Origin: a virus
Virus record (IMG/VR): IMGVR_UViG_3300042475_004124
Location: 1 to 64,000 of that record
DNA length: 64,000 bases
Direction: 5' to 3' (one strand)
Part shown: in pieces, positions 671-3,385 of the stretch
Layout of the letters: each line of letters opens with the position of its first letter
Numbering within the stretch: position 1 is the first letter of the stretch
Notes under the pieces: model-generated
Databases searched by the model: none
What the model was told of the DNA's origin: nothing
The model's input: only the letters and a program-made list of their open reading frames with translations
Translations under genes and position numbers: made by a program

Positions 671-1541
671 ACAATTTCTAATAAAGCAAGCCTACACTCC
701 GCCTGCCTTTCAAGGCAGTCTTATGCCTCCTAATGTATCTCCTACTGATACTCAGGCTTGGGGCTCTGCTCTATCCAAGGATCTGCAGGCCTATGGCCAT
801 TTAAGACCAGGATCTGCGGAATACAATCAAGCAATTAAAACCCGGGGATTCAGTCCTGAGTACATGCAAGGACTTAGCTCCTTGGGGCAAAGAGCACTGC
901 AGATGTCTCAGGATCCTGCAGCAGTTAGAGGATTTGCTTCTGGTAACTTCAGCCCATACGCAGGTCAATTGCTGCAAGGTATAGATCCAGTCCAAGCAGT
1001 AGGCGGATACACCAATGCTGCAAGACTTGGAGCGGGACCAACTCTCCAGGGAGTAGCGGCAGGTGCAACTAGACTAAATGCCAATCCTTTTGCCACTACG
1101 GCTAGCGGGCAATGGGATCCATTTGGATTGCGATCTGGAGCACAGCTAGGAACAGTAGTAGGGCAAAGCGCTGCAAATCAGCAGTTTAGCCAGATGCCAC
1201 AAGCTATCATGGGTAGCTTGGATAGAAACTCTCCGTTGGTTAGATCTTTAATGGCAAATGCTGCCACTACGCATATGTCCAATAAGATCGATGACTGGAC
1301 TTCCGGCATGGGTAGCTTCGGTAGACAGTTGCGAGGACTTGGACAATTCTTATTAGGTATGGGCTCCAGAATGCCTGGCTACGAGTTTATTGCCAATAAA
1401 GCCATAGACTGGTTTGGCCCTGATATGTCCGGAGTGTTTGGCAAGCAGAGTTCTTTGGCTCTTGCTGCGCCATACTCTCATTACAAGGTAATCAAGACTC
1501 AGTGTGGCAGCGAGGTACTCACGCCATGGAACCATCGATAA
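651..1541 (+). CDS. Unknown protein with KQA-type N-terminal leader
   Basis: About 295 residues. Either GTG at 651 or ATG at 654 can start it; both overlap the previous gene. The N-terminus (MDPLLKQFLIKQAYTPP) resembles the ~15-residue hydrophobic leader ending in K-[QK]-A seen on several other proteins here. The body is Gly/Ala/Gln/Ser-rich with few charges (GQRALQMSQDPAAVRGFASG, AAGATRLNANPFATT). It resembles a poorly ordered virion-internal protein more than an enzyme. The last 16 nt overlap the RNA polymerase gene. I do not recognise the family; a packaged head protein is inference from leader and context. Confidence 0.7.
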   Translation: MMDPLLKQFLIKQAYTPPAFQGSLMPPNVSPTDTQAWGSALSKDLQAYGHLRPGSAEYNQAIKTRGFSPEYMQGLSSLGQRALQMSQDPAAVRGFASGNFSPYAGQLLQGIDPVQAVGGYTNAARLGAGPTLQGVAAGATRLNANPFATTASGQWDPFGLRSGAQLGTVVGQSAANQQFSQMPQAIMGSLDRNSPLVRSLMANAATTHMSNKIDDWTSGMGSFGRQLRGLGQFLLGMGSRMPGYEFIANKAIDWFGPDMSGVFGKQSSLALAAPYSHYKVIKTQCGSEVLTPWNHR

Positions 1542-3385
1542 CCACAGTAGGTCAACTGCTCATCAATTCATCGCTTCCCGAGGAACACCGAGACCACGCT
1601 CGAGTCTGGGACAAGTCCTCTATGCGCAAGTTCCTTACTCAGATGGCTACTTCAATGAAGCCAGATGACTACAAGGACATGGTGCAGAAGCTGACTCTAA
1701 TTGGTCTAAAGAGCGCAAGACAGTCGCCTCTATCCAGCTTTACCTTGGAAAGCCTCAAGCCTACCAAGGCCAAGAGCAAGATCACCGACGCTCTTAAAAA
1801 GGACGTTCGAACCATATTACGCACCGTAAAGGATCCCGAGCAGAGAGACGCCGCGATTGTAGATGCGACCTTGAAGTACCAGGACAACCTGGTTGACTCG
1901 GTGTACGACGAGGCCTTGAAGTCCGAGAATCCCTTTGCCATGCAGGTTTACGCAGGCGCCCGTGGAAACAAGAATCAGTTGTCTTCCATGATTGGCACCG
2001 ACTTGATGTATAGCGACAACAAGGGTCGCCCGGTTCCAATCCCAGTCGTCAATTCTTACTCCGAGGGCGTAGATCCGGTCGAGTACTGGGCTGGCTCCTA
2101 CGGTGCTCGCTCAGGCGCCATCGATGTAAAACTGGCAGTAGGTGACGCAGGCTACTTTGCCAAGCGTCTTACAGGCGCAGCTCACCGCTTGGTAGTCACA
2201 GACGAGGATATCGAGGATGGCCAGGGTCTGATGGTTGATACGGATGACCCAGACAACATGGGCTCCATATTGGCTAGAGACGAAGGAGAGTTCAAGAAGG
2301 GTACATACTTGGACTCCAGCATTCTTAAGTCTTTGTCCCAAGCAGGTAAAAAGAGACTTATGATCTATTCTCCCATTGCCGCTGTCAGCGCAATGAACGG
2401 ATTGCCTCGCTGGGCGGCAGGCGTCAGAGAGCACGGTAAGTTGGCCGAGACCGGCATGAATGTCGGCATCACTGCCGCTCAGGCAATTGCTGAACCTGTA
2501 AGCCAAGGCATGCTTAACTCAAAGCACGGTGGCGGTGTTGCAAAGGGCAAAGCTAAGCGCAGTGTTACCGGATTTAACTATTTAAACCAATTAGTAGAAG
2601 TTCCAAAAACCTTTACTGACGGCGCTCCTGTCACGACTGCAGATGGCATTGTAGGTAAGATCGAACCTGCTCCACAGGGCGGTAATTACGTTCACGTAAA
2701 TAATGAAAAATACTATGTGCCTACAGATCAAGCCGTAACCGTCAAGCCAGGCCAGTCCATTGAAGCCGGAGATGCACTCTCAGACGGCATAGTCAATCCT
2801 AAAGATTTGGCAGAATTAAAAGGCATTGGCGAGGCTAGACGCCGTTTTGTCCAGCAGTTCAAGTCTGCCCTACAAGAGAACGGCCTGCCAGCACATCGTA
2901 GAAACGTAGAAGTCGTGGCTCGTGGGCTTATCAATCAGGTGGAAATTACAGAGCCGGACGTAGTTCCTGGCACGTATCCTGAAGATTTGGTCAGCTACGA
3001 CTATCTTGCATCTCGCTACGAACCCAGACAGGGATTCGTATCTGGGGAGCCAGGCAAGTATCTAAATCACTTTTTAGAGAAGCCAATTTTGCACTATTCG
3101 ATTGGAACCCGTATAACTCCAAGTGTTGCTAAGGAGCTAAAAGAAAACGGATTCAATGAAGTGGTTGCGCATAAAAATCCTCCTCCATTTAAGCCAACCA
3201 TGACGAGAGCCATGATGTCACTTATTGGAGATCGAGACTGGATGGTCCAGCTCGGAGGATTTAACCTTAAAAAGACATTCTTGGATAACGTGCAACGTGG
3301 ATCCACATCTCAAATCCACGGCACATCTTGGATTCCCGCCTTGGCTACTGGAGAAATCTCAAAGGGCCCTAAAGGCACTTACTAG
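1526..3385 (+). CDS. RNA polymerase beta' subunit, C-terminal half (split subunit)
   Basis: About 619 residues matching the C-terminal half of multisubunit RNA polymerase beta'. It begins with the TTVG motif (ITTVGQLLINSSLP), as at the funnel region of bacterial beta'. GARGN follows at residues 144-148, then the bridge helix (YGARSGAIDVKLAVGDAGY, 192-210, keeping Gly-Ala-Arg and Asp200). The trigger loop is at about 312-337 (NVGITAAQAIAEPVSQ, then LNSKH with His334). A post-trigger segment resembles the bacterial 'VERGDVISDG..DILRLRG' region (SIEAGDALSDG, LAELKGI). The N-terminal half with the NADFDGD metal site is absent, as in phages with split polymerase subunits. I prefer ATG 1526, with GAGG upstream, over the in-frame GTG at 1502. 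The partner subunits must be encoded elsewhere. Confidence 0.93.
   Translation: MEPSITTVGQLLINSSLPEEHRDHARVWDKSSMRKFLTQMATSMKPDDYKDMVQKLTLIGLKSARQSPLSSFTLESLKPTKAKSKITDALKKDVRTILRTVKDPEQRDAAIVDATLKYQDNLVDSVYDEALKSENPFAMQVYAGARGNKNQLSSMIGTDLMYSDNKGRPVPIPVVNSYSEGVDPVEYWAGSYGARSGAIDVKLAVGDAGYFAKRLTGAAHRLVVTDEDIEDGQGLMVDTDDPDNMGSILARDEGEFKKGTYLDSSILKSLSQAGKKRLMIYSPIAAVSAMNGLPRWAAGVREHGKLAETGMNVGITAAQAIAEPVSQGMLNSKHGGGVAKGKAKRSVTGFNYLNQLVEVPKTFTDGAPVTTADGIVGKIEPAPQGGNYVHVNNEKYYVPTDQAVTVKPGQSIEAGDALSDGIVNPKDLAELKGIGEARRRFVQQFKSALQENGLPAHRRNVEVVARGLINQVEITEPDVVPGTYPEDLVSYDYLASRYEPRQGFVSGEPGKYLNHFLEKPILHYSIGTRITPSVAKELKENGFNEVVAHKNPPPFKPTMTRAMMSLIGDRDWMVQLGGFNLKKTFLDNVQRGSTSQIHGTSWIPALATGEISKGPKGTY

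Follow-up and report, generated by a model that had tools for sequence, protein, structure and literature searches.

The stretch of DNA analysed here, called the window, comprises the first 64,000 nucleotides (64 kilobases, kb) of IMG/VR record IMGVR_UViG_3300042475_004124, which is itself a fragment of 110,101 bases (b) from the genome of a phage of bacteria. The window encodes one half of a viral RNA polymerase (RNAP): a gene near its start specifies the C-terminal part of beta' (beta'C), and a putative sigma-70-family gene lies within a baseplate block further downstream. The other half, beta fused to the N-terminal part of beta' (beta'N), is encoded in a longer record. Read together, these genes very probably specify a two-chain, sigma-dependent phage polymerase of the bacterial, double-psi-barrel type, a judgement that leaves the timing of its synthesis aside. 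The features are collected in Table 1.

The beta' C-terminal subunit

The ATG that opens the beta'C gene is kept in close relatives, and the frame is already open from a GTG at 1502. The earlier note on this DNA had claimed a split beta' subunit, with similarity expected over residues 140-340. RNA_pol_Rpb1_5 of Pfam matches residues 181-476 (E = 2e-21; 77.1 bits against a cut-off of 28.5), and the best matches among PDB relatives are all bacterial beta' chains, with E down to 8e-34. The AlphaFold2 model, built from 22 family members, has a mean predicted local distance difference test (pLDDT) score of 81.8 and a predicted TM-score (pTM) of 0.70. Structure prediction had been suggested as a check; a Foldseek search with the model ranks Thermus beta' first (E ~1e-28, probability 1.00). 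Non-synonymous and synonymous polymorphism against one 91%-identical relative (pN 0.06, pS 0.78) indicates strong purifying selection. The similarity goes far past what chance would give, and the claim of a split subunit is borne out.

The protein carries both elements of the active centre that had been described, and DFDGD, the Asp-triad motif, is not present. In the alignment and the model the bridge helix is continuous and the trigger loop is intact, with the catalytic His334. When the protein is aligned with MG1655 RpoC, Y192 corresponds to H777, Q327 to Q929, L330 to M932, N331 to R933 and H334 to H936, and every correspondence proposed earlier is correct.

Table 1. Coordinates of the polymerase genes, their elements and associated features (window positions unless another record is named)
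Feature	Location	Strand	Detail	Basis
beta' C-terminal subunit of the probable two-chain phage RNAP	1526..3385	+	619 amino acids (aa)	homology, model, selection
Subunit start at TTVG motif = split site	1526..1555	+	E. coli beta' ~553-572	alignment
Bridge helix	2075..2182	+	residues 184-219; Tyr192 = E. coli His777; unbroken single helix in model	alignment, model
Former zinc-2 region	2369..2428	+	residues 282-301; E. coli beta' 888, 895, 898 replaced by A, P, A	alignment
Trigger loop	2462..2569	+	residues 313-348; helix 313-332; Q327 G M L330 N331 S K H334	alignment, model
Head protease candidate	10788-12143			
Major head protein candidate	14790..15767	+	chosen by phrog_2522	context
Sigma-70-family factor, proposed promoter-recognition subunit	42321..43070	+	249 aa	profile matches, conserved context
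Baseplate J-like protein	43940..45703	+	two small open reading frames (ORFs) separate it from the sigma gene	context
beta-beta'N fusion	G001:31999-36921	-	1640 aa	
Single-chain RNAPs joining beta, beta'N and beta'C	L083:1651-7725; L086:1534-8181; L087:1657-7725		L086: open frame of 2216 aa	
Intein-like inserts in beta'C genes	L066:4126-9603; L060:4327-8523; L070:4804-8439; L067:5989-8349; L059/L090:4234-9201; L061:3853-6870			

The partner chain and the cut

Neither beta nor beta'N was found in a search of the 110,101-b record, and both are absent from the 10 kb upstream of beta'C in two further loci (L006 and L008), so the partner gene must be distant. Beta and the Asp-triad part, which the earlier note had proposed to seek in the rest of the genome, occur fused in G001 (174,569 b). 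Judged by sequence, G001 is a longer record of the window's phage: identity is 100% over all overlaps compared, about 36 kb in total (13,382 b in the window; 17,056, 3,157 and 2,944 b in the later part of its record). The fusion gene lies on the same strand as beta'C, at about 130.0-134.9 kb in window numbering, ~20 kb past the end of the window's own record. G002 and G005 likewise carry a beta-beta'N fusion. All catalytic residues checked in the fusion are intact: E813, D814, R678, K1065, K1073, R1106 and H1237 of beta, and R425, N458, D460, D462 and D464 of beta'. A partner with the Asp triad and the beta lysines is thus encoded in the same phage, and the presence of both halves in one phage points to a two-chain polymerase (beta-beta'N + beta'C).

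The C-terminus of the fusion reads '...SPTDTVKILGK' and the N-terminus of the window protein 'MEPSITTVGQLL'; single-chain relatives continue uninterrupted across the cut point ('...DAVVTVAGVQGSTTPGRVLIN'). In E. coli beta' numbering the two chains part between ~553 and 572, with no residues missing between them, and the TTVG motif, rightly taken earlier as the start of the subunit, corresponds to E. coli T572. The suggestion of a phage-specific split multisubunit polymerase is upheld as well: the cut follows the catalytic barrel and the partner exists. The earlier note had named a genome without beta or the N-terminal part of beta' as grounds for refutation, and G001 has both.

Sigma factor, zinc sites and alpha

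The candidate sigma factor matches Sigma70_r3 at 27.6 bits (cut-off 25.3); its region 4 match is weak and below cut-off, and region 2, without a Pfam match, is recognised by eye only. A five-member profile of the family finds cyanobacterial SigA chains (E 6e-4). Of 23 related records that carry an RNAP, 19, one of them single-chain, have an orthologue that the profile detects at E values of 1e-7 to 4e-40. The four records without it are contigs of 30-109 kb. The profile found no orthologue in five phages whose RNAPs are of other types, and because one of these, Carin-5, has an annotated sigma factor that gave no match, it does not respond to just any sigma. Behind the orthologue in Salmonella phage Arash (gp10) and Vibrio phage D69 come two small genes and a larger one, an order shared with the window, where the larger gene encodes the baseplate J-like protein; the larger genes of Arash and D69 are matched to it by size and order only. 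A second weak sigma region-4-like match lies in the same phage, at G001:C1:19129-19215 (-), in a 192-aa frame of L098.

E. coli and nearly all aligned phages keep the four zinc-2 cysteines, and the window's clade and L057 have lost them; at the first position (E. coli 814), upstream of the region listed in Table 1, the window protein has I. The zinc-1 ribbon is missing from every fusion compared, so that both beta' zinc sites are lacking in the enzyme of the window's phage. A search of seven records for alpha detected none, with a control that was positive in 13 of 14. The zinc-1, zinc-2 and alpha marks of a cellular bacterial polymerase were thus not found for this enzyme. The loss of the zinc sites, the fusion of beta to beta'N and the accompanying sigma factor were all missing from the earlier note.

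One, two and three chains among the relatives

The tree (47 rows, 187 columns) has only 4 bacterial rows and some long phage branches. Several database matches labelled as phage (Staphylococcus, Listeria, Enterococcus, Acinetobacter MD-2021a and faecal clones) look like cellular rpoC from unverified or contaminated records; three of them (L217, L218 and L219) entered the tree as bacterial rows only, and the L220 rows were dropped. The phages fall together to one side of a branch (96/94), next to the bacteria; they may be a deep lineage or a bacterial offshoot, and with long branches and few bacteria the tree does not separate the two.

The number of chains varies across the 48 IMG/VR loci examined, some of which are the same contigs as in another locus set of this analysis. 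Most of those examined have two chains. A single chain of ~2020 aa is encoded in L083 and L087, and one with a longer C-terminus in L086. Three chains (beta, a beta'N of ~390 aa and beta'C) are found in G015, G023 and G028, and G016 is similar with a larger beta'N. The single-chain phages branch beside all two- and three-chain phages (94/96). Most likely beta and beta' were fused first, the chain was then divided behind the barrel, and part of the relatives went on to divide it once more. This is the simplest history if the root lies outside these phages, because the single-chain lineage would then diverge first.

The beta'C genes of sister phages carry in-frame intein-like inserts in the bridge helix, the trigger loop or both, with two inserts per gene in L060, L066 and L070. 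These contain Hint and/or LAGLIDADG domains (domain scan of L059, L060, L066, L067 and L070).

Proposed organisation and timing of the enzyme

In the proposed enzyme, the 1640-aa chain would supply both catalytic barrels, and the 619-aa chain the bridge helix, the trigger loop and the remaining beta' C-terminal module. The two chains would fold jointly around the active site, where the trigger loop of beta'C, through His334, may close over the incoming nucleotide while the Asp triad of beta'N binds it. Recruitment of this core to phage promoters could be the task of the phage sigma factor. Alpha would be dispensable, as a single chain already holds beta and beta' together.

Several points weigh against this reading. 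The partner is taken from the longer identical record, the window's own record being without it. The fusion and beta'C genes lie about 41 kb apart if the genome is circularly permuted, and given this distance the co-expression of the two chains is only assumed. For the sigma factor, the hidden Markov model (HMM) scores behind the assignment are modest, and its single-sequence model is poor (pLDDT 55.6), too poor for a structure search. The order of fusion and cut is parsimonious only with a root outside these phages.

A fuller version, held at somewhat below an even chance, is a zinc-free, alpha-less polymerase of two core chains that has a sigma factor of its own, is made late among virion proteins and travels in the particle, with relatives in which the enzyme consists of one to three chains. 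Within the main explanation, the timing is held least firmly. That the enzyme is made late, is packaged and starts the next infection has about an even chance, with a slight lean in its favour, because all three polymerase genes lie among virion-type genes: beta'C precedes the head gene block and the sigma gene lies within the baseplate block. A serious alternative, held somewhat below an even chance, is a late non-virion polymerase, with host RNA polymerase reading the early genes and the phage enzyme and its sigma factor the late genes. It would suit the single polymerase set per genome and the recognisable sigma factor, which recalls late-gene control in other phages. It accounts less readily for a sigma gene that stays within the baseplate cluster across divergent lineages, for an Arash fusion gene placed two genes after the portal and for the position of beta'C ahead of the head block in the window.

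Comparison with known polymerases

Phage multisubunit polymerases are a known kind, and isolates with the two-chain form have been deposited. The closest known systems are Salmonella phage Arash (OQ632216; gp206 + gp216 + gp10) and Vibrio phages D69, D181 and D148. The window's phage has the same arrangement as Arash and D69, which encode a beta-beta'N fusion of 1525-1527 aa, a separate beta'C of ~607 aa and a sigma orthologue linked to baseplate and tail genes, with ORFs of equal size order after it. Their beta'C differs: it is 25-29% identical to that of the window, retains zinc-2 and has the loop Q-x2-L-[GS]-T-K-H. Their fusion gene lies a few kb from beta'C, near the portal, and they have an additional annotated sigma factor. 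The deposited two-chain genes bear only the annotation 'RNA polymerase subunit beta' or are listed as hypothetical. A literature search on fused or split phage polymerases of this design, on inteins in phage polymerases and on Arash, in which subscription papers were partly covered, found no description, and no paper was found on the two-chain form, on the sigma factor that goes with it, on the range of chain numbers or on the missing zinc sites.

The known phage multisubunit polymerases without alpha come mainly from phiKZ-like jumbo phages, whose core consists of four or five fragments. The virion and non-virion enzymes of phiKZ and AR9 resemble that of the window in being phage-encoded, without alpha and cut after the catalytic barrel, a cut that recurs in cyanobacteria and phiKZ-like phages (PMC7598289). 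The beta'C loop of the phiKZ-like phage BpSp is also similar (Q-x2-L-S-S-K-H), with Lys before the loop His. It is nevertheless very unlikely that the enzyme is of this jumbo-phage type. In phiKZ and AR9, beta is split in two or more parts, beta'N is separate and there are usually two polymerase sets (PMC7598289, PMC7824862, PMC7618050); the window's phage has an unsplit beta fused to beta'N and one set, G001 and G002 each giving a single match to beta. The sigma-like subunit of phiKZ and AR9 is not recognisable by sequence (PMC7598289, PMC7824862), in contrast to the recognisable sigma here, and their trigger loop has a large insertion (PMC7598289, PMC7618050). A tblastn search returned neither AR9 nor phiKZ.

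Other systems share single features with the two-chain enzyme. Cyanobacterial and plastid RpoC1-RpoC2 are cut in the same region of beta', within about 15 residues, since RpoC2 residue 15 aligns with beta'C residue 28. These polymerases have a beta that is not fused to RpoC1, and alpha, omega and the zinc sites are present. In Yersinia phage YerA41, beta'N and beta'C are likewise encoded by separate genes, but beta has its own gene, all three lie side by side in the replication region, and no orthologue of the window's sigma was found. The mReC lineage (Weinheimer and Aylward 2020) comprises Caudoviricetes from metagenomes with bacterial-like beta and beta'; it is reported as encoding both subunits, was selected by hits of at least 800 aa to COG0085 and COG0086, and has a PF07068 capsid (PMC7481178). 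By these published criteria its beta and beta' are separate, the latter with NADxDGD, whereas the window's phage has a divided beta' whose N part is joined to beta; the Gp23-type capsid of PF07068 was not found in the window's phage. The polymerases of crAss-like phages and Thermus phage P23-45 are phage enzymes too, set apart by their published descriptions as a highly divergent single chain or a fusion with the tape-measure protein, that of P23-45 being packaged in the virion (PMC7481178, PMC10770324).

The two-chain enzyme is a simpler set than that of phiKZ-like phages, with two core chains and sigma, and its relatives carry the core as one or three chains; this series offers a good model for the cutting and rejoining of such enzymes. 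If the packaged, zinc-free reading holds, the steps by which a cellular-type RNA polymerase is cut and fused would be directly readable. The set also makes it possible to test how few parts such a polymerase needs, whether the beta-beta' tether replaces alpha and why both zinc sites are dispensable. A further question open to test is whether the barrel, behind which cyanobacteria, phiKZ and these phages are all cut, is followed by a joint that is tolerant by nature. With two genes and sigma dependence, so compact an enzyme would suit expression and study.

The trigger loop and the question of an Rpb1-like origin

The earlier interpretation stands as far as the split phage polymerase is concerned, and its second part, a trigger loop of the archaeal and eukaryotic Rpb1 type, is not supported. 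The Leu-Asn pair at the M932/R933 positions matches yeast Rpb1 (QMTLNTFH), and Leu330 is common to many relatives. In 80 archaeal A'' loops, a non-random sample chosen by the pattern TFHYAGVAE, this pair is MR in 42, MN in 22, LR in 10, LN in 3, MK in 2 and LS in 1. Among the phages, Leu-Asn is limited to the window's small clade plus L058 and is absent from most relatives. With few exceptions, such as L055 with A for S/T, the two- and three-chain phages share the motif Q-x2-[LI]-[NSG]-[ST]-[KR]-H, and BpSp has QRLLSSKH. The residue before the catalytic His is Phe in cells and Lys or Arg in these phages; in the window, Leu-Asn is followed by S-K-H, with Lys333 in place of the Phe of cellular T-F-H. 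The loops of the single-chain relatives have Met-Lys, retain Phe-His and are closer to those of bacteria. Leu-Asn is best read as local drift, as relatives vary between N, S and G at the second position and have Lys or Arg before the His.

Archaea form a clade of their own in the tree (100/100), and the window protein sits among the phages. With this placement, the loop survey and best matches that are exclusively bacterial beta', an Rpb1-like subunit, derived from or functionally aligned with an archaeal or eukaryotic polymerase, is rejected as highly improbable. Weakest of all, to the point of being negligible, is the notion of a decaying fragment or a piece of cellular rpoC on a chimeric contig, which half a subunit on a fragmentary record might suggest: beta'C is under strong purifying selection, its gene recurs amid phage genes in several independent assemblies, and its similarity to cellular beta' is distant only.

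Neighbouring genes and other observations

The phage looks contractile-tailed from its gene content. Pfam and PHROG scans of most neighbouring genes gave no matches, and at a threshold of 0.01 Pfam gives none for the capsid candidate. A terminase, a family A DNA polymerase and a ribonucleotide reductase are encoded further along the record. PF03237, the terminase family of the mReC lineage, matches the terminase at 21.9 bits against a cut-off of 22, and PF05876 matches better. The DNA polymerase (1019 aa; L003:16595-19651, +, about 80595-83651 of the record) has a 3'-5' exonuclease and an added uracil-DNA-glycosylase-like domain. A protein with metallopeptidase and VWA-like (DUF2201) parts is encoded at L005:1424-2662 (+), about 105424-106662 of the record.

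Glycine-rich small proteins, possibly membrane-inserting, lie near both polymerase genes, at 3425-3952 and 6790-7401 in the window and at L036:11352-11996 and 17950-18480 (-) near the fusion gene. Directly upstream of the beta'C neighbourhood, L006:3-7517 encodes a protein of >2500 aa with repeats that look RCC1-like by eye. A proline-rich protein with tandem MPPPMDPAMAGG repeats is encoded at 6-422 of the window and is also present in L006.
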